DNA from: Pseudoxanthomonas sp. PXM01
Lineage (GTDB): Bacteria > Pseudomonadota > Gammaproteobacteria > Xanthomonadales > Xanthomonadaceae
Direction: 5' to 3'
Assembly: GCF_014851815.1 (NCBI RefSeq)
Contig: NZ_JACVAJ010000003.1
Location: 1 to 64,000 of the forward strand
Length of the DNA: 64,000 nt
Made by a program: the position numbers and the translations under genes. Within the stretch, counting starts at the first letter, position 1. Each line of letters begins with the position of its first letter. The notes under the pieces are model-generated. The model made no database searches. It was not told the DNA's origin and saw only the letters and a program-made list of their open reading frames with translations. Of this stretch, positions 13,157 to 26,241 are shown piece by piece.

Positions 13157-13789
13157 TTACGGCCAGACCGGCGGATTGGCCTGCCAGGCGCCGAGCACTT
13201 CGGCCAGCGTGTCGCGATCTTCCTGTCGCCAGCCGGGCAGCAGCGTGGCGTAGTTGCGCGCATCGGTCCACAGCAGGGGCTCGGTGCGCACGGCCGCGCC
13301 GTACCATTGCACCGCGTCTTCCTTGCGGCCCTGCTTCCACAGTGCCAGCGCGAGGGTGGGCGGCACCCACGAGGGGCCGCGGACCGCGCTGACCAGCGGC
13401 GTCCACTGCTGCAACGCCGCCTCGTGTTCGCCCAGGCGATACAGGTCCCAGCCGTAGTTCCAGCTGATCGAACGCCACAGGTTGCCGCCGGACTGCGTGC
13501 TGCTCAGGGCCTGCTGGTACAGCTGCCGTCCCAGGTCGGCACGGCCATCGTTCAGCGCGATGTGCCCCAGTTGCGCAGTGGCTTCGACCATCTTGCGGCC
13601 ACGCTCGCGCGCCTTCACCAGCTGGTCCACCAGCGCAGCCCCTTCCACGCCGGTGATGGCGACCACCGGCACGGCCGCGCGGTCCTCGTCGAAATAGAAT
13701 TCCTTCGGCTTCGGCACCGACTGTGCCTGCGCGGAAAAGACCGCCGATGCCAGCACGATGGCCAGCAGTGTGCACTTGCCTGCTTTCAC
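13157..13789 (-). CDS. Secreted TPR-like protein of unknown function
   Basis: A 210-residue protein with a signal peptide (CTLLAIVLASAVFSAQAQ). The mature region is helical with TPR/Sel1-like pairs: GHIALNDGRADLGRQLYQQA, SWNYGWDLYRLGEHEAALQQ and ALALWKQGRKEDAVQWYGAA, followed by NPPVWP at the C-terminus. Such repeats mediate protein binding in the periplasm. No specific function can be assigned. It is divergent from the indolepyruvate oxidoreductase gene and reads toward ggt. Confidence 0.75.
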   Translation of the reverse strand: MKAGKCTLLAIVLASAVFSAQAQSVPKPKEFYFDEDRAAVPVVAITGVEGAALVDQLVKARERGRKMVEATAQLGHIALNDGRADLGRQLYQQALSSTQSGGNLWRSISWNYGWDLYRLGEHEAALQQWTPLVSAVRGPSWVPPTLALALWKQGRKEDAVQWYGAAVRTEPLLWTDARNYATLLPGWRQEDRDTLAEVLGAWQANPPVWP

Positions 13790-13944
13790 TACGTTTCCCC
13801 CGGACTACAACAGCCCCCCGGCGCATCCTAACCGCTGCAACGCACAACGACGCAGTGATGCGCGTCACAGAAAATGCCGCTGTTACAATGCGCGCCTTCA
13901 CGCCCGAGGGGTTATCGGGCCTCGCCAGCCGCTTTGGGCCCGCC

Positions 13945-16900
13945 ATGACCAGCACCGCCGAACTCACCTCGCCCTCGTCCGCCAATACGCCGCAGATCGG
14001 GGTGATCGACAGCGACTACACGCTGGAACACAAGTACACGCGCACCGACGGCCGCATCTACCTGAGTGGCGTGCAGGCGCTGGTGCGGTTGCCGTTGATG
14101 CAGCGGCTGCGCGACCAGGCCGCCGGTCTGAACACCGCGGGCTTCATCAGTGGCTACCGCGGCTCGCCGCTGGGCGGCTTCGACCTGGAGCTGTGGCGCG
14201 CACGCAAGCATCTCGAGTCCGCCGGCGTGAAGTTCACCCCGGGCCTCAACGAGGACCTGGGCGCGACCATGGTGTGGGGCACGCAGCAGACCAACCTGTT
14301 CCCCGGCGCCACCGTCGATGGCGTGTACTCGATGTGGTACGGCAAGGGCCCCGGCGTGGACCGCTGCGGCGACGTGTTCAAGCACGGCAACGCCGCAGGC
14401 ACTTCGAAGTTCGGCGGCGTGCTCGCGCTGGCGGCGGACGACCACAACTGCCGCAGCTCGACGCTGCCGCACGGCTCGGAAGACGAATTCGTCAGCGCGA
14501 TGATGCCGGTGCTGAACCCGGCCGGCGTGCAGGACATCCTCGACCTGGGTCTGGTCGGCTGGGCGATGAGCCGTTACACGGGCCGCTGGATCGGCTTCAA
14601 GACGATCGCCGAGACCGTGGAGTCGTCGGCCTCGGTGCAGGTGGATCCGTTCGCGCGCGAGATCATCCTGCCGGAAGACTTCGCGATGCCGGCGGGCGGC
14701 TTGAACATCCGCTGGCCGAATCCGCCGCTCGACCAGGAGATGCGCCTGCACAAGTACGCGGTCGCCGCGGCGCAGGCGTTCGCACGGGCGAACAAGGTGG
14801 ACCGCATCGTGCTGGATTCGCCGCGCGCGCGCCTCGGCATCGTCACCACCGGCAAGAGCTACCTGGACGTGCTGCAGGCGCTGGAATACCTGGGCCTGGA
14901 CGAGCAGGCCTGCGCCGACATCGGTATCCGCGTCTACAAGGTCGGCATGACCTGGCCGCTGGAACCGGTCGGCATCACCGAGTTCGCCAAGGGGCTGGAA
15001 GACATCGTCGTGGTGGAGGAGAAGCGCGCCTTCATCGAGCGGCAGATGAAGGAGTATTTCTACAACTGGCCCGCCAGCGCGGGCACGCGCCCGTCCATCG
15101 TCGGCAAGTACGACGAGGGCGGCGAGTGGATCCTGCCGTCCACCGGCGAGCTGACCCCGGCGACGATCGCCGGCGTGATCGGCCGCCGCATCCAGCGCTT
15201 CTTCACCACGGAATCCATCGAACAGCGCCTGCGCTGGATGGAAGAGAAGGAAGCCGAGATGGCGCTGCCGCGCGCCAACTTCCCGCGCGTGCCGCACTAC
15301 TGCAGCGGCTGCCCGCACAACACCTCGACGGTGGTGCCGGAAGGTTCGCGCGCACTCGGCGGCATCGGCTGCCACTACATGGTGACGTGGATGGACCGCG
15401 ACACCGACACCTTCACCCACATGGGCGGCGAAGGCGTGACGTGGTCGGGCCAGGCGCCGTTCACCGAGACCGAGCACGTCTTCCAGAACCTGGGCGACGG
15501 CACGTTCTTCCACTCCGGTTCGCTGGCGGTGCGCCAGTCGGTCGCCACCGGGGTGAACATCACCTACAAGATCCTCTACAACGACGCGGTGGCGATGACC
15601 GGCGGCCAGCCGGTGGACGGCACGCTGTCGGTGCCGCAGATCGCACACATGATGCGCGCCGAGGGCGTGGACACGATCGTCCTGGTCAGTGACGACATCC
15701 GCAAGTGGAGCAAGCGCGAGCTGTTCCCAAGCGGCGTGGAGTTCTTCGACCGTGCCGAACTGGACGACGTGCAGCGCCGCCTGCGCGAAGTGAAGGGCGT
15801 CTCCATCCTGATCTACGACCAGGTCTGCGCCACCGAGAAGCGCCGCCGCCGCAAGCGCGGCAAGCTGCCGGACCCGGCCAAGCGCACGATGGTCAACACG
15901 CTGGTCTGCGAAGGCTGCGGCGACTGCGGCGTGAAGAGCTTCTGCGTGTCGGTACTGCCGAAGGAAACCGAATTCGGTCGCAAGCGCGAGATCGACCAGT
16001 CGAACTGCAACAAGGACTTCCGCTGCGTCGACGGCTTCTGCCCCAGCTTCGTCACCGTGCACGGCGGCACGCCGCGCAAGGGCAAGAAGGCCAACGCCGC
16101 CGACCTGCTCGCCGCGCTGCCGGCGCCTGCATTCAAGTCGGACCTCAATGAACCCTGGAACATCCTGATCACCGGCGTCGGCGGCACCGGCGTGGTGACC
16201 ATCGGCGCGCTGCTCGGCATGGCCGGCCATCTGGAAGGCAAGGGCGCCAGCGTGCTCGACCAGACCGGCCTGGCGCAGAAGGGCGGCGCGGTGACCACGC
16301 ACATCCGCATCGCACGCACGCCGGAAGACATCCACGCCGTGCGCATCGCCGCCGGCGAAGCCGACCTGGTGCTGGGCTGCGACATGGTGGTGGTCAACGA
16401 CTACTGGGTGCTGTCGAAGGTGCGCGGCGAACGTTCGCAGGTAGTGCTGAACACCTACGAGGCGATGCCGGGCACGTTCACCACCCATCCGGACATGCAG
16501 TTCCCCGCCACCGACATCGTGGCCGGCGTGAAGGTCGCCCTGGGCGGCCGCGACCCGCTGCTGGTCGATGCCACGCAGATCGCGACCGCGCTGATCGGCG
16601 ACGCCATCGGCAGCAACCTCTTCATGCTGGGCTATGCCTGGCAGCAGGGCCTGGTACCGATCTCGTTCGACGCGATCATGCGTGCGGTCGAGCTCAATGG
16701 CGCCGCCATCGAGATGAACAAGACCGCCTTCGCCTGGGGCCGACTGGCCGTGGTGAATCCGCAGGCGGTGCAGGAAGCCGCCGGCCTGATCCGCAATACG
16801 CAGACCGAGAGCGAACGCACGCCGCGTGCCCTGCAGGTGCTGCCGCCGGGCGAGTGGGAAAGCACCGAATGGGGTGCCAACGCGGCACCGCGCAATCCCG

Positions 16901-17652
16901 GCAACGAGAGCGAGCTGCGCGGCCTGCCGGAAGACGGCGCGGGCGACGCGGACGTCGCCTTCCTGCCGCTGGACGACCTGCGCCTGTCGCGTTCGCTGGA
17001 CGAGTTGATCGCACGCCGCACCACGTTCCTGACCGAGTACCAGGACGCCGCCTACGCCCGCCGCTACACCGATCTGGTGACGCAGGTGCGCAGCGCCGAG
17101 AACACCCGGGCGCCCGGTTCGACCGCGCTGACCGAGGCGGTGGCCCGCTACTTCTTCAAGCTGATGGCGTACAAGGACGAGTACGAAGTCGCGCGCCTGT
17201 ACACCAGCGGCGAGTTCCAGCGGCGCCTGCAACAGCAGTTCGACGGCGACTACGAGGTGCACTTCCACCTCGCGCCGCCGCTGTTCGCCAAGAAGGACGC
17301 GCACGGCCGCCTGATGAAGAAGGAATACGGTCCGTGGGTGTTCAAGGCGTTCGGCCTGCTGGCGAAGCTGCGCTTCCTGCGCGGCGGCACCTTCGACGTG
17401 TTCGGCTACACCGACGAGCGCAAGGGGGAGCGCCAGCTGATCGCGGACTACGAGAAGACCATCGGCGAGCTGCTGGCCGCGCTGGATGCCGGCAAGCTGG
17501 GCCTGGCCGTGGAGATCGCGAGCATCCCCGAGCACATCCGCGGCTACGGCCACGTCAAGGAAAAGCACCAGCACGCCGCCAAGGCGCGTGAAGCGGAGCT
17601 GCTGGGCTTGTGGCGCAATCCGAAGGCGCTGCACATCGTGCAGGCGGCGTAA
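13945..17652 (+). CDS. Fused indolepyruvate:ferredoxin oxidoreductase family protein
   Basis: A 1235-residue cytosolic thiamine-diphosphate enzyme fusing the IorA and IorB functions; related enzymes decarboxylate aryl- or branched-chain 2-oxo acids to acyl-CoA with ferredoxin as acceptor. The N-terminal pyrimidine-binding region has GFISGYRGSPLGGFDLEL; the ThDP region has GIGCHYMVTWM and MGGEGVTW. Iron-sulfur cysteines follow (CEGCGDCGVKSFC, FRCVDGFCPSF), then the gamma-type domain (TGVGGTGVVTIGALLG, DQTGLAQKGGAVTTHIRIAR) and a C-terminal region ending in HIRGYGHVKEKH. The ATG at 13945 is preferred because a TACAAT -10 box lies at 13884-13889, so starts further upstream would precede transcription. 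Length fits the bacterial fused family. Confidence 0.94.
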   Translation: MTSTAELTSPSSANTPQIGVIDSDYTLEHKYTRTDGRIYLSGVQALVRLPLMQRLRDQAAGLNTAGFISGYRGSPLGGFDLELWRARKHLESAGVKFTPGLNEDLGATMVWGTQQTNLFPGATVDGVYSMWYGKGPGVDRCGDVFKHGNAAGTSKFGGVLALAADDHNCRSSTLPHGSEDEFVSAMMPVLNPAGVQDILDLGLVGWAMSRYTGRWIGFKTIAETVESSASVQVDPFAREIILPEDFAMPAGGLNIRWPNPPLDQEMRLHKYAVAAAQAFARANKVDRIVLDSPRARLGIVTTGKSYLDVLQALEYLGLDEQACADIGIRVYKVGMTWPLEPVGITEFAKGLEDIVVVEEKRAFIERQMKEYFYNWPASAGTRPSIVGKYDEGGEWILPSTGELTPATIAGVIGRRIQRFFTTESIEQRLRWMEEKEAEMALPRANFPRVPHYCSGCPHNTSTVVPEGSRALGGIGCHYMVTWMDRDTDTFTHMGGEGVTWSGQAPFTETEHVFQNLGDGTFFHSGSLAVRQSVATGVNITYKILYNDAVAMTGGQPVDGTLSVPQIAHMMRAEGVDTIVLVSDDIRKWSKRELFPSGVEFFDRAELDDVQRRLREVKGVSILIYDQVCATEKRRRRKRGKLPDPAKRTMVNTLVCEGCGDCGVKSFCVSVLPKETEFGRKREIDQSNCNKDFRCVDGFCPSFVTVHGGTPRKGKKANAADLLAALPAPAFKSDLNEPWNILITGVGGTGVVTIGALLGMAGHLEGKGASVLDQTGLAQKGGAVTTHIRIARTPEDIHAVRIAAGEADLVLGCDMVVVNDYWVLSKVRGERSQVVLNTYEAMPGTFTTHPDMQFPATDIVAGVKVALGGRDPLLVDATQIATALIGDAIGSNLFMLGYAWQQGLVPISFDAIMRAVELNGAAIEMNKTAFAWGRLAVVNPQAVQEAAGLIRNTQTESERTPRALQVLPPGEWESTEWGANAAPRNPGNESELRGLPEDGAGDADVAFLPLDDLRLSRSLDELIARRTTFLTEYQDAAYARRYTDLVTQVRSAENTRAPGSTALTEAVARYFFKLMAYKDEYEVARLYTSGEFQRRLQQQFDGDYEVHFHLAPPLFAKKDAHGRLMKKEYGPWVFKAFGLLAKLRFLRGGTFDVFGYTDERKGERQLIADYEKTIGELLAALDAGKLGLAVEIASIPEHIRGYGHVKEKHQHAAKAREAELLGLWRNPKALHIVQAA

Positions 17653-17697: not shown

Positions 17698-18525
17698 CTA
17701 GGAGCGCGCGCCTCTTAACCCGAGCGTGGCCAGTGCGCTGCGCAACGGCGGCTTCAGCGGCAACGCCAGTGTCCGGTAGACGAAGGACAGCGCGCGGCGC
17801 GTCCGCGGCACGCGCCACGCGAGGCCTTCCTCGATCGTGTACACGCATGGCGCACAAGCGCCGCAGGGTCGGCCACGCAACGGACGATGGCAGAACCACG
17901 TCATGTCCATCAGCGCGCTCCAGCCTTCGCGCGCGGCCTCGTCCTGCATCGCGCGCTTGTCGATCGGGAACAGCGGGAAGCTGAAGTGGCGGAACAAGGT
18001 GTACTCCGGCGTGCCCGCATGGCGCACGGACAGCCGGAAGCTGCGGTAGGTGCCGGCCTGTTCGAACGCCTCCACCTTCGACGACAGCAGTGCCTGCACC
18101 TTGTCGTCCACGTGCACGCTCAGCTCGATGCCGTCGATGCCGTGCTGTATGCAGAATTGCGGAAGCCAGGCGTACTGGCTGCCGATGTACATGTGCCGTC
18201 GCACCCTGCGCAATGCGTCTGCAATGTCGGCATCGTGATCCAGTTCCGCAACGCGGAACCGCCGCAGCGGCCGCAGCAGGTCGCGCGTATGCGGATGCCG
18301 GGCATGCAATGCCTCGGTGATCCGCTGCAGGCTCTGCAGTTCCGTGGCCGTGGAGGGCCGCGTCGGATCCTCCAGGTAATAGGGCGTCACCACCAGCCGG
18401 TGCTTCAGCAGCAGACGAAGCAGCTGGAACGTCGAATCCCAACCGCTGGTCCACAACAGGCGTACGCCTTCGTCGACGACGGGCGATGCGCGTTCGAGCA
18501 GGGACACGTGGTGTAGCGACGTCAT
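17698..18525 (-). CDS. QueC-like PP-loop ATPase with zinc site, specific function unknown
   Basis: A 275-residue cytosolic protein. Residues 23-36 carry an adenylating PP-loop, LLWTSGWDSTFQLL, in which SGWDS replaces the usual SGGxDS. Near the C-terminus C212, C221, C224 and C227 form C-X8-CGAC-APC, the same spacing as the zinc site of QueC (7-cyano-7-deazaguanine synthase). An aromatic-rich middle (HMYIGSQYAWLPQFCIQHGI) and a basic C-terminal extension of about 48 residues are not typical of QueC. PP-loop enzymes activate carboxylates or nucleobases with ATP to form amides, nitriles or thio-compounds. The gene is divergent from a diiron-oxygenase/VOC pair, not next to queuosine genes, so a specialised role is more likely than queuosine synthesis. 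Confidence 0.7.
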   Translation of the reverse strand: MTSLHHVSLLERASPVVDEGVRLLWTSGWDSTFQLLRLLLKHRLVVTPYYLEDPTRPSTATELQSLQRITEALHARHPHTRDLLRPLRRFRVAELDHDADIADALRRVRRHMYIGSQYAWLPQFCIQHGIDGIELSVHVDDKVQALLSSKVEAFEQAGTYRSFRLSVRHAGTPEYTLFRHFSFPLFPIDKRAMQDEAAREGWSALMDMTWFCHRPLRGRPCGACAPCVYTIEEGLAWRVPRTRRALSFVYRTLALPLKPPLRSALATLGLRGARS

Positions 18526-18731
18526 GGCCGGATGCTAGCAAGCGCACGCGCAGGTGGCCGCAGCTTCTCTTCACATTGCTTCGCATTGCATTAATCGCGC
18601 AGCGGCACGTCCTGTTCATTCCCTCTTTGCACGCGCTGCTCACGCCTGCGCTCACCATCATCCGGAGGAACGGCGCGCTCGTGCGCATGAGTGCTGGTGA
18701 TGCGTCGCGCCCCATCCGCAGGAGTCCATCG

Positions 18732-19454
18732 ATGCATGCGCAGCCCATGAACCGGGAGCAATTCTGGCGTTTCGCCGACGCCGCCAAGGAATCCACCGAA
18801 GCGCTGGCCGCCCAGCGCATGAAGATCCTGCCGGAGCTCGATGTCGAGGCGCTGCGCGGCTTCTGCATCCAGTACCGCTTCTTCACCATCGACTACATCA
18901 GCGACCTCGCACTGCTGGTCGCACGCCTGCCGTTCGGCGGCCTGCGCAGCCTGCTCGGCCAGATCCTGACCGAGGAGCTGGGCGAAGGCGATCCTGCACG
19001 CGCGCATCCGACGGTGTACGACCGCTTCCTCACCAGCATCGGCGTGGACCGCCAGGACCTGTCGAACGTGCTGCCCGCCAACGAGCGCATCCTGCAGGGA
19101 CTGACGCGCGACATGACCCGCCACCCCGTCGCCTACGGCGTGGGCCTGCGCGGAATGGGAGGCGAATGCCTTTGCCAGACCTACCTGTCGGTGATGTTCG
19201 AGCACATGCGCACGCACCCCTACCTGCAGGCGAACGCCGACACGATCGACTGGGAGTTCTGGACCATCCACACCGGCGAGGAGGACATCATCCACGGCGA
19301 GCTGACCCGCGCCGCCATCGACGAATACCTGCGCGACGACCCCAGCGTGCTGCCCGAGCTGGCACGCGGCTACGAGCGCAGCATCACCGCCTGGAACCTG
19401 TTCTGGCAGAACATCCTGGACGCGTATGCACCGCCGCTGGAGGTCGCGTCGTGA
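18732..19454 (+). CDS. Haem-oxygenase-like diiron (HDO) family redox protein
   Basis: A 240-residue all-helical protein of the iron-containing redox enzyme (TenA/haem-oxygenase-like) superfamily. The helix signature TEELGEGDPARAHPTVYDRF supplies E82 and H92, ten residues apart as in known HDO enzymes. E145 (MGGECLC) and H180, E184/D185 and H188 (IHTGEEDIIHGEL) are candidates for the remaining metal ligands. Relatives oxidise amino acids or fatty acids with a diiron centre in natural-product routes; this substrate is unknown. The ATG at 18732 has AGGAGT six bases upstream. The VOC gene starts on its stop codon (GTGA overlap), indicating translational coupling. Confidence 0.78.
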   Translation: MHAQPMNREQFWRFADAAKESTEALAAQRMKILPELDVEALRGFCIQYRFFTIDYISDLALLVARLPFGGLRSLLGQILTEELGEGDPARAHPTVYDRFLTSIGVDRQDLSNVLPANERILQGLTRDMTRHPVAYGVGLRGMGGECLCQTYLSVMFEHMRTHPYLQANADTIDWEFWTIHTGEEDIIHGELTRAAIDEYLRDDPSVLPELARGYERSITAWNLFWQNILDAYAPPLEVAS

Positions 19455-19885
19455 ACGCGGTGGCAGAGGCATCGATCGCCCAGTTCCATCTCGCGTTCCC
19501 GGTCCGCGACCTGGACGAGGCGCGCGGGTTCTATGGCGGCGTGATGGGCTGCACGATGGGCCGCCGCGATACCTCGTACCAGGACTTCGATTTCTTCGGT
19601 CACCACCTGGTCGCGCACATCGGCGCCGACGGCCGGCCGCTGCACAACGGACGCTTCGACGGCGAGGCGGTACCGGTACCGCATTTCGGCATGAACCTGG
19701 ACCGTGCTGCGTGGGAGGCGCTGGCCATGCGGCTCAAGGCCGCCGGCATTCCGTTCCATGAGGAGCCGCACCTGCGCCTGAAGGGCAAGCCCGGCCAGCA
19801 CGTCACCATGTTCCTGTTCGACCCCTCCGGCAACGCGCTCGAATTCAAGTCTTTCGACGATCCCGAGCAGACCTTCATTCCCTGA
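19451..19885 (+). CDS. VOC (glyoxalase/extradiol dioxygenase) family protein
   Basis: A 144-residue single-domain VOC protein with two beta-alpha-beta-beta-beta modules. The N-terminal motif AQFHLAFPVRDLDEARGFYG supplies a metal-binding histidine; HFGMNLD in the second module supplies another and ALEFKSF a glutamate, giving the two-His-one-carboxylate set used by glyoxalases and dioxygenases. DPSGNALE is the family C-terminal block. The GTG at 19451 overlaps the preceding TGA by four bases, so it is co-translated with the diiron protein. Substrate unknown; the coupling suggests action on the product of the upstream enzyme. Confidence 0.88.
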   Translation: MNAVAEASIAQFHLAFPVRDLDEARGFYGGVMGCTMGRRDTSYQDFDFFGHHLVAHIGADGRPLHNGRFDGEAVPVPHFGMNLDRAAWEALAMRLKAAGIPFHEEPHLRLKGKPGQHVTMFLFDPSGNALEFKSFDDPEQTFIP

Positions 19886-19888
19886 GCG

Positions 19889-20488
19889 TCAGCCGCCGCG
19901 TCGCCAGACCAGGCAGCGGTTGTTCGCCGGCATCGCGTTGTCCTTGATCAGCACCAAGCCGATGCCCCGCGCCAGCGCATCGACGGCCTCGAAATCGCGG
20001 ATGCCGGACGCGGGATCGCGATCCTTCAGCCACTGCTCGAAAGCGCGGTTGCTGTCGCTGGTGAAGTCGCCGTCGTAGTTGAAGGGGCCGTAGACGATCA
20101 GCAGGCCGTTCTTCGCAAGCACCTCGCCGACGCCGGCGAAGAATGCCTCGACCTGGGGCCAGCCCATGATGTGCAGGCTATTGGCGGTGAACACCGCATC
20201 GAAGGTCGCGTCAGGCCACGGGCCGTCGACATCGAGTTCGATCGTGGGCGGCGTGTTCGGCAACGCCATGTCGTCGAGCCAGGCCGTGATGCCCGGGAGA
20301 TTATCGGCGCGATCGCTGGTTTGCCAAGTCAGCCACGGCATCGCCGCCGCGAAGTGCACGGCATGCTGGCCGGTGCCGCTGCCGACCTCGAGCACGCGGC
20401 GCGTGTCGCCTAGATGGCGCTGCAGGACGTCGAGGATCGGTCCCTGGTTGCGTTCGCACGAGGGCGCGAATGGTTTCTCCGCCGCCAT
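19889..20488 (-). CDS. DUF938 family SAM-dependent methyltransferase
   Basis: A 199-residue class I methyltransferase-like protein. The SAM-binding glycine loop is RRVLEVGSGTGQHAVHFA near residue 35, the acidic loop follows strand 2 (WQTSDRADN), and motif IV-like TANSLHIMGWPQVEAFFAGV is characteristic of DUF938. A second family motif is LLIVYGPFNYDGDFTSDSNR. The substrate is not known for this family. Its ATG overlaps the stop codon of the upstream NYN-domain gene (TGATG at 20486-20490), so the two are translated together. It converges on the VOC gene, with only three bases between stops. Confidence 0.88.
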   Translation of the reverse strand: MAAEKPFAPSCERNQGPILDVLQRHLGDTRRVLEVGSGTGQHAVHFAAAMPWLTWQTSDRADNLPGITAWLDDMALPNTPPTIELDVDGPWPDATFDAVFTANSLHIMGWPQVEAFFAGVGEVLAKNGLLIVYGPFNYDGDFTSDSNRAFEQWLKDRDPASGIRDFEAVDALARGIGLVLIKDNAMPANNRCLVWRRGG

Positions 20489-21324
20489 CAGCCGGCAGAA
20501 CGCACGTAGATGCGCTTCAGGCCATTGTCGCCGCCGCGCTCCTCGACGGTGAAGTGGCGCGGATGCGCCTTCAGCAGGTCGCTGAGTTTCTTGTGCCCGT
20601 ACAGCCGGGTGTCGAAATCGGGGCGCACTTTGTTGAGGTAACTGCCGACGCTGCCGAGGAAGGCCCAGCCCTGGTCATCGCTGGCCTCTTCGATGGCCTG
20701 ACGGATCAGCCGCAGCGGCAACGATTCGTGCCTGCCTGCCTCCACCACGGGTGCGGCGGTCGGTTCCGCCTGCGCGGCAGGCTTCTTCGCGGCCGGCTTG
20801 GCCGCCTTCTTCGCGGGTTTCGGTGGCGACGGCGGCGCAGGCGGTGCCGGTACTTCGCTGCGCAACACCTCGACGTAGATGAACTTGTCGCAGGCCTGCA
20901 CGAAGGCGTCCGGCGTCTTGCGCTCGCCGAAACCGTACACGGTCAGCCCTTCCTCGCGCAGGCGCTGCGCCAGGCGGGTGAAGTCGCTGTCGCTGGAGAC
21001 CAGGCAGACGCCGTCGAACCGGCGTGTGTACATCAGGTCCATCGCATCGATGATCAGCGAGCTGTCGGTGGCGTTCTTGCCGCTGGTGTAGGCGAACTGC
21101 TGCACCGGGTTGATCGAATGCTTCAGCAGCGCCTGCTTCCACTGGGTCATGCGCGTGCTGGTGAAGTCGCCGTAGATGCGCTTGACGCTGGCGACGCCGT
21201 ACTTGGCGGTTTCCGCCAGCAGGCCTTCGATGACGGCGGGCTGCGCGTTGTCGGCGTCGATCAGCACGGCCAGCCGCGGCTGTTCGTCGTCGTTTTCGGG
21301 CCGGGCGACCGGACGGGATTTCAT
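20488..21324 (-). CDS. NYN-domain nuclease-like protein with C-terminal OST-HTH/LOTUS domain
   Basis: A 278-residue protein. Residues about 18-165 form a NYN (PIN-like) domain: LAVLIDADNAQPAVIEGLL, IYGDFTSTRMTQWKQAL, TDSSLIIDAMDLMYTRRFDG and VCLVSSDSDFTRLAQRLREE carry the acidic residues expected of a metal-dependent RNase. A lysine/alanine/proline-rich linker (SPPKPAKKAAKPAAKKPA) joins it to a LOTUS winged helix (LRLIRQAIEEASDDQGWAFL, GSVGSYLNKVRPDFD, LYGHKKLSDLLKAHP) that typically binds RNA. The ATG at 21324 has AGGA nine bases upstream; another ATG at 21333 is possible. RNA cleavage or surveillance is inferred from the domains. Confidence 0.85.
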   Translation of the reverse strand: MKSRPVARPENDDEQPRLAVLIDADNAQPAVIEGLLAETAKYGVASVKRIYGDFTSTRMTQWKQALLKHSINPVQQFAYTSGKNATDSSLIIDAMDLMYTRRFDGVCLVSSDSDFTRLAQRLREEGLTVYGFGERKTPDAFVQACDKFIYVEVLRSEVPAPPAPPSPPKPAKKAAKPAAKKPAAQAEPTAAPVVEAGRHESLPLRLIRQAIEEASDDQGWAFLGSVGSYLNKVRPDFDTRLYGHKKLSDLLKAHPRHFTVEERGGDNGLKRIYVRSAG

Positions 21325-21448
21325 GTGCGCCATTCCTGTGCAGGATCGGGTGCATTGTGCACCACGTCGCCGCGGCATGACCGGCGTCACTTGACGTTGC
21401 CGCGTGTGCCGACGACAGTCCGGAGGCTTCCGCTCCAGGACCCGATCG

Positions 21449-23077
21449 ATGCAACGACGCGACTTCCTCGCCCTCGGTGGCCTCACCCTCGCGGGGCTCG
21501 CACTGCCCGGCACGCGCGTCATCGCCGCCGAAGCCCTGCTGGAACCCGGTGACGTGGCGAAGAAGAAGCGCCTGGCCGATGCCGCGCTGGCAGCGGCGAC
21601 CGCCGCGGGCGCGACCTACTGCGACGTGCGCATCGGGCGCTACCTGCGGCAGTCGCTGATCACCCGCGAGGACAAGGTGCAGAACGTGGTGAACACGGAG
21701 TCCTCCGGCATCGGCGTGCGCGTGATCGCGCAGGGCGCCTGGGGCTTCGCCGCGACCAACGACCAGACGCCGGACGGCGTCGCGGCCGCCGCGCGGCAGG
21801 CCGTTGCCATCGCCCGCGCCAATGCGCGCATCCAGGGCAAGCCGGTGCAGCTCGCGCCACTGACCGGCACCGGCGAGGTGGCGTGGAAGACGCCGATCGT
21901 CAAGAACGCGATGGCGGTGCCGGTGAAGGACAAGGTCGACCTGCTGCTGGGCGCCAACGCCACCGCGCTGTCGGCCGGCGCCAGCTTCGCGGCCTCGCGC
22001 ATGTTCGTCATCAACGAGCAGAAGTACTTCGCCAGCACCGACGGCTCCTACATCGACCAGGACGTGCACCGCATCTGGGTGCCCTTCACCGTGACCGTGG
22101 TGGACAAGGCGACCGGCAGGTTCAAGACGCGCGACGGCCTGTCCGCGCCGATGGGCATGGGCTACGAATACCTGGACGCCAACCCGGCCGACAAGATCGC
22201 GCTGCCCGGTGGCGTGGTGGCGTACGGCGCCTCGTACGACCTGCGCGACGACATCGTAGCCGCGGCGAAACAGGCGCGGGCCAAGCTGACCGCGCCGTCG
22301 GTGAAACCCGGCAAGTACGACCTGGTGCTGGACCCGTCCAACCTGTTCCTGACCATCCACGAGAACGTCGGCCATCCGCTGGAGCTCGACCGTGTGCTCG
22401 GCTATGAAGCCAACTACGCCGGCACCAGCTTCGCCACACTGGACAAGCGCGAGCAGCGCTTCCAGTGGGGCAGCCCGATCGTGACCTTCACCGCCGACAA
22501 GACCGAGCCGCACAGCCTCGGCGCGGTCGGCTACGACGACGAAGGCGTCAAGACTCGGCGCTGGGACCTGGTGAAGGACGGCGTGCTGGTCAATTACCAG
22601 GCCACGCGGGACGAGGTCCATATCTTGGGCGAGGACGCCTCGCACGGCTGCAGCTATGCGGACTCGTGGAGCAGCGTGCAGTTCCAGCGCATGGCCAATG
22701 TCTCGCTGGCGCCGGGCAAGACGCCGCTGACCGTGGCAGAGATGGTCAAGGACGTGGAGAACGGCATCTACATCCATGGCCGTGGTTCGTATTCCATCGA
22801 CCAGCAGCGCTACAACGCCCAGTTCGGCGGCCAGCTGTATTTCGAGATCAGGAACGGCCAGGTGACGCGACAGATCGAGGACGCCGCCTACCAGATCCGC
22901 ACGCCGGAGTTCTGGAACGCCTGCACCGCCATCTGCGACGCGCGCGACTTCCGCCTCGGCGGTTCGTTCTTCGACGGCAAGGGCCAGCCCAGCCAGGTCT
23001 CTGCGGTCTCGCACGGCTCGGCGACCACGCGCTTCAACGGCATCAACATCATCAACACGGCCCGCAGCCTGGGTTGA
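21449..23077 (+). CDS. Tat-exported TldD-family metalloprotease (copy 1)
   Basis: A 542-residue protein. It starts with a twin-arginine signal, MQRRDFLALGGLTLAGLALP, supported by AGGA eight bases before the ATG. The TldD domain has GATYCDVRIGRYLRQSLITR, the zinc motif HENVGHPLELDRV (HExxxH) near residue 305, a later conserved cysteine (ASHGCSYADSW) and QRMANVSLAPGK. TldD normally works in a complex with TldE to degrade unfolded or modified peptides. The next gene is a close paralogue and the third a TldE-type partner, so this is a duplicated TldD plus TldE set. Export makes the site of action periplasmic, unlike the cytosolic E. coli TldD. Confidence 0.92.
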   Translation: MQRRDFLALGGLTLAGLALPGTRVIAAEALLEPGDVAKKKRLADAALAAATAAGATYCDVRIGRYLRQSLITREDKVQNVVNTESSGIGVRVIAQGAWGFAATNDQTPDGVAAAARQAVAIARANARIQGKPVQLAPLTGTGEVAWKTPIVKNAMAVPVKDKVDLLLGANATALSAGASFAASRMFVINEQKYFASTDGSYIDQDVHRIWVPFTVTVVDKATGRFKTRDGLSAPMGMGYEYLDANPADKIALPGGVVAYGASYDLRDDIVAAAKQARAKLTAPSVKPGKYDLVLDPSNLFLTIHENVGHPLELDRVLGYEANYAGTSFATLDKREQRFQWGSPIVTFTADKTEPHSLGAVGYDDEGVKTRRWDLVKDGVLVNYQATRDEVHILGEDASHGCSYADSWSSVQFQRMANVSLAPGKTPLTVAEMVKDVENGIYIHGRGSYSIDQQRYNAQFGGQLYFEIRNGQVTRQIEDAAYQIRTPEFWNACTAICDARDFRLGGSFFDGKGQPSQVSAVSHGSATTRFNGINIINTARSLG

Positions 23078-23248
23078 TCGCGCGATCCGGGCATCGCGAC
23101 GCGGTGTGTATGCCGAAAGTCATTTGACGCTGTCTCCACCGCGGCGCAAGAATCGGGGACGACCCGCGCGGTGGACATGGCGCGGGCCACAACGCGTCCG
23201 TCGCAGTCCCCCGCCTGCCCCGCGCAGGCCCAATGGTGGAGAACAGCC

Positions 23249-24883
23249 TTGCAACGTCGTGACTTCCTGGCCCTGACCGGCCTCACCGTGGGCGGCCTGA
23301 TGGTGCCGTCCTACTTCGGCAAGGCGATCGCCGCCGAGCAACTCCAGTCCACCCTCGATGTCGCGTTCAAGAAGCGCCTCGCCGACGCCGCGCTGGCCGC
23401 CGCCAAGCAGGCCGGCGCCACGTACTGCGACGTGCGCATCGGCCGCTACCTGCGCCAGTTCGTGATCACCCGCGAAGACAAGGTGCAGAACGTGGTGAAC
23501 ACCGAGTCCACCGGCGCCGGCATCCGCGTGATCGCCAACGGCGCCTGGGGCTTCGCCGCCACCAACACGCTGACCGCCGAGGGCGTGGCCGCCGCCGCGC
23601 GCCAGGCCGCCGCGATCGCCACCGCCAACAGCAAGACCCAGACCGCGCCGGTGCAGCTGGCCAAGGCGCCGGGCTTCGGCGAGGTGTCGTGGAAGACGCC
23701 GATCAAGAAGAACGCGATGGAAGTTCCGATCAAGGACAAGGTCGACCTGCTGCTGGGCGTCAACGCGGCGGCGATCAACGCCGGCGCCGACTTCGTCAAC
23801 TCGATGATGTTCGTGGTCAACGAGCAGAAATACTTCGCCAGCACCGACGGCTCCTACATCGACCAGGACGTGCACCGCATCTGGGTGCCGATGACGGTCA
23901 CCGCCATCGACAAGGCCAGCGGCAAGTTCCGCACCCGCGACGGCCTGTCCTCGCCGGTCGGCATGGGCTATGAGTACCTCGACGGCGACGCCTCGCAGAA
24001 GTACGCCACGCCGAACGGCGTGATCAACTACGGCCTGTCGTACGACATGAAGGAGGACGCCATCGCGTCCGCCAAGCAGGCGCGCGCCAAGCTGACCGCC
24101 CCGTCGGTGAAGCCCGGCAAGTACGACCTGGTGCTGGACCCGTCGCATACCTGGCTGACCATCCACGAGAACGTCGGCCACCCGCTCGAACTGGACCGCG
24201 TGCTCGGCTACGAGGCCAACTACGCCGGCACCAGCTTCGCCACGCTGGACAAGCGCAAGGACGCGTTCCAGTACGGCAGCGGCATCGTCAACCTGTTCGC
24301 GGACAAGGTGCAGACCGGCAGCCTGGGCGCGGTCGGTTACGACGACGAGGGCGTCAAGACCAAGCGCTGGGACCTGGTGAAGGAAGGCAAGCTGGTCGAC
24401 TACCAGACCATCCGCGACCAGGCCCACATCCTGGGCAAGGACGAATCCGACGGCTGCTGCTACGCCGACTCGTGGAGCAGCGTGCAGTTCCAGCGCATGG
24501 CCAACGTCTCGCTGGCCCCGGGCAAGACCAAGCTGTCGGTGGCCGACATGATCAAGGACGTCGAGAACGGCATCTACATCATCGGCGACGGCTCGTTCTC
24601 GATCGACCAGCAGCGCTACAACGCGCAGTTCGGCGGCCAGCTGTTCTACGAGATCAAGAACGGCAAGATCACCCAGCAGCTCGAGGACGTGGCCTACCAG
24701 ATCCGCACGCCGGAATTCTGGAACGCCTGCACCGCGATCTGCGACGAGAGCGACTACCGCCTGGGCGGTTCGTTCTTCGACGGCAAGGGCCAGCCCGGCC
24801 AGGTATCCGCGGTGTCGCACGGGTCGTCCACCGCGCGCTTCAACGGCATGAACGTCATCAACACCGCCCGCTCGCTCGGCTGA
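23249..24883 (+). CDS. Tat-exported TldD-family metalloprotease (copy 2)
   Basis: A 544-residue paralogue of the preceding gene, alignable along its whole length. The start is a TTG at 23249, chosen because GGTGGAGA lies seven bases upstream and because it gives MQRRDFLALTGLTVGGLMVP, matching the twin-arginine signal of copy 1; an ATG at 23174 would place about 25 unrelated residues in front. The zinc motif HENVGHPLELDRV, the cysteine motif ESDGCCYADSW and the C-terminal ARFNGMNVINTARSLG are retained, so both copies look active. The 171-base gap before it carries the same GTCAnTTGACGnTG element seen before copy 1. The TldE-like gene starts 23 bases downstream. Confidence 0.92.
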   Translation: MQRRDFLALTGLTVGGLMVPSYFGKAIAAEQLQSTLDVAFKKRLADAALAAAKQAGATYCDVRIGRYLRQFVITREDKVQNVVNTESTGAGIRVIANGAWGFAATNTLTAEGVAAAARQAAAIATANSKTQTAPVQLAKAPGFGEVSWKTPIKKNAMEVPIKDKVDLLLGVNAAAINAGADFVNSMMFVVNEQKYFASTDGSYIDQDVHRIWVPMTVTAIDKASGKFRTRDGLSSPVGMGYEYLDGDASQKYATPNGVINYGLSYDMKEDAIASAKQARAKLTAPSVKPGKYDLVLDPSHTWLTIHENVGHPLELDRVLGYEANYAGTSFATLDKRKDAFQYGSGIVNLFADKVQTGSLGAVGYDDEGVKTKRWDLVKEGKLVDYQTIRDQAHILGKDESDGCCYADSWSSVQFQRMANVSLAPGKTKLSVADMIKDVENGIYIIGDGSFSIDQQRYNAQFGGQLFYEIKNGKITQQLEDVAYQIRTPEFWNACTAICDESDYRLGGSFFDGKGQPGQVSAVSHGSSTARFNGMNVINTARSLG

Positions 24884-24906
24884 CCGGCGCAAGGAGACCC
24901 TAGAAC

Positions 24907-26241
24907 ATGAGCATCCTCACCGAAGCGCAGGCCAAGGCCATCCTGGACAAGGTCCTTGCGCTGTCCAAGGCGGACGAGTGCACCGCATCCCTCACCGGCT
25001 CGATCGAAGGCAACATCCGTTTCGCGCTGAATAACGTCTCCACCAGCGGCATCGTCAGCAACACCGACCTCGCCGTGCAGGTCGCGTTCGGCAAGCGCAC
25101 CGGCGTGGCGACGATCAACGAGTTCGACGACGCCTCACTGGAACGTGTCGTGCGACGCGCCGAAGACCTCGCCCGCCTGGCCCCGGAGAATCCGGAGTTC
25201 ATGCCGGCCGTCGAGAAGCAGGCCTACAAGGCGTCACCGACCTTCAGCGACTCCACCGCCGCCATCACGCCGGAGTTCCGCGCGCAGGTGGCCGCCGATT
25301 CGATCGGCCCGTGCAAGGCCGAGAAGCTGATCGCCGCCGGCTTCCTGGAAGACGGCCAGAGCTTCGTCGCCTTCGCCAACAGCAAGGGCAACTTCGGCTA
25401 CCAGAAGGCCACCGCGTTCAACTACACCTGCACGGTACGCACCGAGGATGGTCGCGGTTCCGGCTGGGTCGGCCGCAACCTGAAGGATGCCAGCGCATTC
25501 AAGGCCGACAGCGACATCCGCACCGCGATGCGCAAGGCCAGCGAATCGGCCGAGGCCAAGGCGCTGGAACCGGGCAAGTACACGGTCATCCTGGAACCGG
25601 CCGCGGCCGCCGGCCTGATCTCCTTCATGATGAACTTCTTCGACGCGCGCCAGGCCGACGAAGGCCGCAGCTTCCTGTCCAAGAAGGGCGGCGGCAACAA
25701 GCTGGGCGAACAGGTCTACGACCCGCGCGTGAACATCAGCGCCGACCCGTGGCACCCGGGCGCCGAAGTGATGCCGTGGGACAACGAAGGCCTGCCACGC
25801 GAGAAGATGGCCATCGTCGAGAACGGCAAGGTGGTCAACCTGGAGTACTCGCGCTTCTGGGCGCAGAAGCAGGGCAAGCGCGCGATCGGTTCGCCGGGCA
25901 ACCTGCTGTTCGCCGGCGGCACCAAGTCCACCGCCGAGCTGGTCGCCGGCACGCAGAAGGGCATCCTGGTCACGCGCACCTGGTACATCCGCATGGTCGA
26001 TCCGCAGACCGTGCTGCTGACCGGCCTGACCCGCGATGGCACCTTCTACATCGAGAACGGCCAGATCAAGCACCCGGTGAAGAATTTCCGCTTCAACGAA
26101 TCGCCGGTGATCATGCTCAACAACATCGAGGAACTCGGCAGGCCCGTCCGCGTGGCCGGCGACGAGTCCAGCTTCGTGATGATGATCCCGCCGATGAAGC
26201 TTCGCGACTTCACCTTCACCTCGCTGTCGGACGCGGTGTAA
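24907..26241 (+). CDS. TldE/PmbA-family partner protein
   Basis: A 444-residue protein of the TldD/PmbA superfamily lacking the HExxxH zinc motif, as expected of the TldE/PmbA subunit. Family blocks include EGNIRFALNNVSTSGIVSNT at the N-terminus, LEPAAAAGLISFMMNFFDAR in the middle, and RTWYIRMVDPQTVLLTGLTR and DGTFYIENGQIKHPVKNFRF toward the C-terminus. No signal peptide is visible (MSILTEAQAKAILDKVL is an amphipathic helix). It follows copy 2 by 23 bases with AAGGAGA upstream, so it is co-expressed with the exported TldD proteins. Confidence 0.9.
   Translation: MSILTEAQAKAILDKVLALSKADECTASLTGSIEGNIRFALNNVSTSGIVSNTDLAVQVAFGKRTGVATINEFDDASLERVVRRAEDLARLAPENPEFMPAVEKQAYKASPTFSDSTAAITPEFRAQVAADSIGPCKAEKLIAAGFLEDGQSFVAFANSKGNFGYQKATAFNYTCTVRTEDGRGSGWVGRNLKDASAFKADSDIRTAMRKASESAEAKALEPGKYTVILEPAAAAGLISFMMNFFDARQADEGRSFLSKKGGGNKLGEQVYDPRVNISADPWHPGAEVMPWDNEGLPREKMAIVENGKVVNLEYSRFWAQKQGKRAIGSPGNLLFAGGTKSTAELVAGTQKGILVTRTWYIRMVDPQTVLLTGLTRDGTFYIENGQIKHPVKNFRFNESPVIMLNNIEELGRPVRVAGDESSFVMMIPPMKLRDFTFTSLSDAV

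Follow-up and report, generated by a model that had tools for sequence, protein, structure and literature searches.

Among the ATP-dependent relatives of QueC are N-sugar amidotransferases of the WbpG/WbuX type. Cap9 and QatC are further QueC-like proteins and act against phages. In a 2026 survey of the QueC family PF06508, the WbpG/WbuX-type enzymes form cluster 5, and the QueC pocket is described by the motifs YxQxHxxE, VPxRN and YPDC (PMC13329287). Among the haem-oxygenase-like diiron oxidases/oxygenases (HDOs), about a dozen have been functionally validated, most of their reactions are unprecedented for diiron catalysts, and SznF, which combines an HDO with a cupin and forms an N-nitrosourea, is set apart from the other characterised members by that cupin, according to a 2026 review (PMC13108848). 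Here we analyzed a 64,000-nucleotide stretch of DNA from Pseudoxanthomonas sp. PXM01 (contig NZ_JACVAJ010000003.1, positions 1 to 64,000; ‘the window’), in which a QueC-like PP-loop gene is divergent from a gene pair for an HDO and a metalloenzyme of the VOC superfamily. The individual parts are known kinds of enzyme.

Results

The PP-loop, HDO and VOC genes are linked in Lysobacteraceae

The locus consists of the following features:
17698..18525, minus strand: PP-loop ATP-dependent enzyme with a zinc site, QueC superfamily, the divergent partner (275 amino acids; below the curated PF06508 cut-off)
18526..18731, no strand: divergent intergenic region of 206 bases between the PP-loop and HDO starts
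18732..19454, plus strand: HDO (240 amino acids; probable ligands E82, H92, E145, H180, D185 and H188)
19451..19885, plus strand: VOC-superfamily metalloenzyme (144 amino acids; GTG start; probable metal triad H13, H78 and E131)

The HDO gene starts at the ATG at 18732, with AGGAG upstream at 18720, and its stop overlaps the GTG start of the VOC gene (19451) by four bases. The three open reading frames (ORFs), the divergent gap and this overlap lie where an earlier note, made from the letters alone, had placed them when it proposed that the three genes form a pathway. No operator common to the eight aligned intergenic rows was seen by eye.

Our family sample comprised 149 genomes of the bacterial family of the window (Lysobacteraceae), in which the PP-loop protein was matched in 26 genomes, the HDO in 22 and the VOC protein in 35 (the last at E ≤ 1e-20). 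The trio lies side by side in 17 of the 149, with identities of at least 57% (PP-loop), 68% (HDO) and 80% (VOC). Every genome with a PP-loop protein at least 57% identical (17/17) has adjacent HDO and VOC genes, a line that we set after inspecting the data, and this tabulation of neighborhoods bears out the co-occurrence and coupling of the three genes that the earlier note had put forward. Among the named loci, which overlap with the genome set (11 of the 17 trio genomes coincide with them), the three genes occur together in the window and in all 20 loci L008-L027, and the full trio was found in none of the 38 other PP-loop loci, two of which are short. In a tree built by a quick method, the PP-loop proteins of the trio group in a single clade (SH-aLRT 100) that also takes in a member from G468 (51% identical), a genome without HDO and VOC.

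At E ≤ 1e-50 the HDO is present in 19 of the 149 genomes and has the PP-loop gene alongside in 17 of these. Besides these 17, five genomes have an HDO match: in three the match is weak (E between 2e-10 and 8e-4), and in the other two, G483 and G529, HDO and VOC are fused in one 439-amino-acid ORF and the PP-loop protein has no match; both domains (HDO and Glyoxalase, PF00903) were confirmed in the fused G483 protein. Among 398 genomes of the phylum, the HDO was found only in the window genome (G000) and in G284, of the same genus, and it was found in none of the 31 non-trio PP-loop carrier genomes. The PP-loop protein has seven matches in the 398 genomes, the weakest three spanning only 45-52 residues, and a plasmid search with it gave no match. 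Crude dN/dS values between the window and L008, also from Pseudoxanthomonas, were 0.129 for the PP-loop gene, 0.098 for HDO and 0.028 for VOC, so all three genes look to be under purifying selection. These low values, together with the recurrence of the trio in 20 named loci, argue that the locus is more than a chance arrangement.

The earlier note had called the locus a compact one of three genes, and while the trio does hold together, many relatives add a class-III aminotransferase gene. It lies downstream of the VOC gene in 15 of the 20 named trio loci; the five loci without it are named Pseudoxanthomonas, and a sixth so named, L017, carries it. At E ≤ 1e-150 the aminotransferase was found in 14 of the 149 genomes, as a single copy that always adjoins HDO-VOC and occurs nowhere else; 12 of these genomes have the PP-loop gene and the other two carry the HDO-VOC fusions, where the aminotransferase gene is convergent. 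At the same threshold, it is absent from the window genome and from the five other sampled genomes of its genus. Two examples match NCBIfam NF004718 (‘hypothetical protein’) with 745.5 and 729 bits (cut-off 472). The linkage and the fusion point to joint action of HDO and VOC and to an aminotransferase that belongs with them.

The PP-loop protein is a divergent member of the QueC superfamily

PF06508 scores the window protein at 14.8 bits, below the Pfam cut-off of 22, and matches 65 of the 69 rows of its family at E ≤ 0.1 (best 8.8e-8). No NCBIfam family matched it at E ≤ 1, and a QueC-like family of PHROGs matched residues 21-231 (5.4e-8). The zinc-site cysteines, C212-X8-C221-X2-C224-X2-C227, are invariant in 69/69 aligned rows including the window. 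In this alignment, rows L002 and L012 are one locus (a duplicate), three copies without a motif match are omitted (two in L054, one of which was dropped solely because the motif pattern disallowed its first letter, and one in L044), and L064, an edge fragment with no match, was removed before counting. The earlier note had described the PP-loop itself (SGWDS) as altered, which is right as to the variant residues and overstated otherwise, as profile alignment places TSGWDS in register with SGGQDS of a solved QueC (SGGxDS in general), with the stretch alone scoring only 2.5-8.0 bits. By this alignment, the loop is a TSGxDS variant that is not shortened and barely altered.

The AlphaFold2 model of the protein (pLDDT 92.2) was compared with known structures in two ways. 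In the VIA ranking, Cap9, QatC, QatC and QueC are the first four rows, with YcfA and other PP-loop rows within 1 of QueC, and plain Foldseek placed TtuA first, with low TM-scores of 0.33-0.44 over the query. As modeled, the protein has a QueC fold, and the zinc motif, the in-register PP-loop and this predicted fold together sustain the QueC relationship, including the exact zinc spacing, claimed by the earlier note. The likeness extends to a Lys before the zinc site (62/69 rows), whereas the Tyr that follows the first zinc Cys in QueC is His in 64/69 rows of this family, the pocket motifs VPxRN and YPDC are absent from both the window protein and the family consensus, and YxQxHxxE is only partly aligned. 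The protein is a little-known relative of a tRNA-base enzyme and seems to have shifted to another substrate.

One other assignment was rejected and two are weak. The gene is not the organism’s own QueC, which is a separate full-length gene at G000:C5:700207-700833. A phmmer search of the PDB with the single protein returned RamR-type regulators (E 0.0025-0.0051, residues 140-182), a weak likeness that was not recovered with the family profile, and a DUF6074 match (E 0.012) is shared by just one of the 69 family rows.

The HDO and VOC proteins retain probable metal sites

The HDO matches PF14518 (Haem_oxygenas_2) with 56 bits (cut-off 28.9). Alignment with BesC and with 4-aminobenzoate synthase points to E82, H92, E145, H180, D185 and H188 as its probable metal ligands, and these residues are invariant in 32/32 aligned rows, one weak match (L116) being left out. 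The ligand rule for HDOs is three His and three carboxylates (PMC13108848), and the window protein probably carries this 3His/3carboxylate set. BesC, HrmI, CADD, FlcD and UndA share with it the fold and six alignable metal ligands, but it is just 12-19% identical to them in the structural rows. The VOC protein matches PF00903 (Glyoxalase) with 35.4 bits (cut-off 20.6), and H13, H78 and E131 align with identical residues of 3rri, which are presumably metal ligands there, pointing to a probable His-His-Glu triad. The identification of a haem-oxygenase-like diiron protein and a VOC metalloenzyme in the earlier note is upheld by these matches and residues.

Three plasmids carry an HDO relative, and no annotated VOC gene adjoins it in the two that we viewed (the gene table is incomplete). 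On a Rhizobium plasmid (L095, 2935-10807), two YcaO-like genes and a TfuA-like gene are found close to an HDO relative (43%), hinting at a cluster for peptide modification. VOC relatives are frequent on plasmids (96 records), with 49-54% identity among the 30 matches listed, and the three plasmid neighborhoods viewed indicated no substrate. Lone VOC relatives (~52%) divergent from a LysR-type regulator gene are present on Pseudomonas aeruginosa and Azospirillum plasmids (L128, 5013-6423; L129, 4996-6426).

A metabolic module is the preferred reading

The conserved enzyme set probably makes or tailors a small molecule. We suggest, with a probability of roughly 0.42, that the three genes, joined by the aminotransferase in relatives, are one metabolic module in which HDO and VOC oxidize an amino-acid-type compound and the PP-loop protein ligates a carboxylate. 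This reading builds on what was observed, namely the linkage and fusion of the genes, the folds predicted for their products and the intact residues of the active sites; from these we infer the order of the steps, the substrate class and the product. The HDO, using O2 and its diiron center, would oxidize a small amino-acid-type substrate by N-oxygenation, desaturation or C-C cleavage, and the VOC enzyme would next rearrange or further oxidize the same intermediate, since the two are fused in two relatives. The class-III aminotransferase of many relatives may give or take the amino group of the substrate or product. Like QueC-family enzymes, the PP-loop protein would use ATP to adenylate a carboxylate, which it would then couple to an amine or ammonia to give an amide-type product. 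SznF offers an analogy for an HDO-VOC pathway (PMC13108848), but its second domain is a cupin, whereas the fused relative at L112 has Glyoxalase (PF00903) instead. A further analogy is provided by predicted operons of an oxygenase and a cupin with pyridoxal-phosphate enzymes and ligases (PMC2922099).

Outside the trio, the PP-loop family often keeps company with surface-glycan genes

Fifteen of the 38 non-trio loci have a gene for a TupA-like ATP-grasp protein no more than 2 kb from the PP-loop gene, and four (all Saccharibacteria) have a RimK ATP-grasp gene together with one for a PF05618 protein. Both counts are descriptive because the neighbor profiles (TupA, sugar-transfer ATP-grasp, GT2, GT4, RimK and PF05618) were built from the neighbors of these same loci. 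In an evenly drawn Bacteroidota sample, the family occurs in 10 of 395 genomes; seven of nine carrier stretches have glycosyltransferase or ATP-grasp genes (TupA-like in four, sugar-transfer ATP-grasp in two), or six of eight when L145, which is the earlier locus L063, is set aside, against 0/9 control stretches of these genomes; four controls (L156-L159) span 2.9-10.3 kb rather than the intended 20 kb. A TupA-like domain in a capsule enzyme makes an amide of glucuronic acid (PMC11800379), and given these neighbors, the gene-order data place the family often alongside amide ligation in surface-glycan clusters. A Lysobacteraceae paralogue lies near Wzc-like and asparagine-synthase-like genes in an apparent exopolysaccharide cluster (L126, 4372-10017).

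These associations, the L126 paralogue among them, favor a surface-polysaccharide role for the trio itself, in which an unusual amine or amino acid would be the joint product of HDO, VOC and aminotransferase, and the PP-loop protein would either couple it to a sugar acid or amidate such an acid. We regard this as unlikely, because none of the 22 trio places matches any of the six profiles. The six profiles also fail to match 14 of the 38 non-trio loci, of which two span just 3.6 kb, and the Bacteroidota locus L030 (G542, the tenth carrier of that sample). Nine of the 15 TupA loci, moreover, come from Flavobacterium and are not independent.

The family also varies in copy number and arrangement. 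Four Lysobacteraceae genomes have 3-5 PP-loop copies each, and divergent paralogue pairs without HDO or VOC are present in two (L119, 8724-11321, and L120, 9166-10935, the same loci as L028 and L029). A Lysobacteraceae paralogue with the motif TGGWAST, where Ala replaces the invariant Asp, is perhaps an inactive copy (L127, 9221-10066). Triple tandem family genes are found in metagenome-assembled genomes (MAGs) of Flavobacteriaceae (L031, 7971-10736) and Synergistales (L034, 1880-4324), and in L151 (10746-16862) five tandem ORFs, one of them Pfam-confirmed, match the sugar-transfer ATP-grasp profile next to two PP-loop genes.

Catabolic, incidental and nucleobase explanations

No more credible than a polysaccharide role is a catabolic or detoxifying module for breaking down an amine, or a compound resembling an amino acid, from the habitat, with the PP-loop protein activating the substrate for this purpose. 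Catabolic pathways often include class-III aminotransferases and VOC enzymes, the nearest relative of the aminotransferase among solved chains is taurine:2-oxoglutarate aminotransferase (E 4.3e-112), and the occurrence is patchy (19/149 genomes for HDO at E ≤ 1e-50). However, an ATP-using carboxylate-activating enzyme is less usual in catabolism, and the window flanks hold an oxidoreductase and a DUF938 protein and no transporter.

A chance adjacency, with no more than a promoter region in common between the PP-loop gene and an HDO-VOC(-aminotransferase) operon of unrelated function, is a good deal less probable. HDO-VOC and aminotransferase do occur without the PP-loop gene in the two fusion genomes, and the PP-loop family occurs without HDO (nine of the 26 PP-loop genomes), but the linkage holds in 17/17 genomes across 57-100% PP-loop identity and persists despite differing flanking ORFs. 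These flanks (mechanical ORFs) vary among trio loci: an ORF clustering with the window oxidoreductase lies no more than 1 kb away in seven of the 22 places and 4.3 kb away in one more, and L013, L014, L021, L022 and L027 share a different flanking ORF, 40-131 bases away.

The last alternative has the PP-loop protein acting on 7-carboxy-7-deazaguanine, like QueC and Cap9, to give a nucleobase-containing metabolite or a protein conjugate. The closest folds are Cap9, QatC and QueC, and since the window genome encodes QueC and a homologue of PTPS, its organism could make the base. On the other side, a PF06508 match at E ≤ 1e-20 is present in nine of the 31 non-trio carrier genomes and absent from 22, of which 19 have weaker, mostly partial matches that include the PP-loop family itself, and seven of the 31 also have no PTPS match (G556, G558, G564, G567, G568, G569 and G570). 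Several carriers are MAGs and perhaps incomplete, QueE lay outside the search, and the 31-genome set used in the HDO, PF06508 and PTPS searches omits L049 (in the assembly of L038), L059, L061, L062 and L063. No Met-Gly start was seen on the HDO or VOC proteins of the 20 named loci, where starts are uncertain and other partners were outside the test. The missing VPxRN and YPDC motifs also argue against a deazaguanine substrate, an argument weakened because QatC likewise lacks the QueC motifs (PMC13329287). Because 22 of the 31 carriers have no full-length QueC match, and seven also no PTPS, queuosine-base chemistry is unlikely for the family, and the suggestion that the trio alters a nucleobase, made in the earlier note, is disfavored to the point of being highly improbable.

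Neighboring genes in the window

The large oxidoreductase ORF that adjoins the trio (13723-17652; POR, TPP-enzyme and DUF6537 matches) is near the trio in some relatives only. On the other side (19889-21522), the DUF938 methyltransferase-like gene is next to a gene for a protein with NYN and OST-HTH/LOTUS domains. Three PmbA/TldD metallopeptidase-family genes follow in succession (21404-26241), the first two of which (557 and 570 amino acids) have identical domain content and are similar by eye, which suggests a tandem duplication.

Discussion

The trio differs from the described systems nearest to it. None of the three window proteins matched a PADLOC defense family at E ≤ 10, so a known defense system is unsupported as far as PADLOC covers them, and the trio is unlike Cap9 and QatC in this and, as far as the uncertain starts allow, in the lack of a visible Met-Gly start. 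WbpG/WbuX-type enzymes resemble many members of the PP-loop family as QueC-superfamily ATP enzymes of surface-sugar clusters, but their cysteine pattern differs by the description in the survey (PMC13329287), and the direct likeness seen here is a single weak Foldseek match (8wex, E 0.012). Judged by its motifs, the PP-loop family fits no cluster described in detail in that survey, where small clusters are undescribed (PMC13329287). A full-text literature search, whose coverage mostly excludes subscription journals, found no description of the HDO-VOC pair or fusion, of the four-gene module or of this QueC-like branch.

A broader and more doubtful proposal than the module itself is that the PP-loop family represents a lineage of the QueC fold that has left 7-deazaguanine chemistry and now serves as a carboxylate-amine ligase for small metabolites and surface glycans. 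Its recruitment to an HDO-VOC-aminotransferase module in Lysobacteraceae would have brought an adenylating ligase together with a diiron N-oxygenase and a small metal enzyme. Their product may be N-oxygenated or contain an N-N bond, and the arrangement would parallel the predicted oxygenase-cupin-ligase operons.

With an HDO tied to a VOC enzyme by operon and fusion, the substrate and the second step can be sought jointly, and the PP-loop family makes it testable whether the QueC fold became a general amide ligase.
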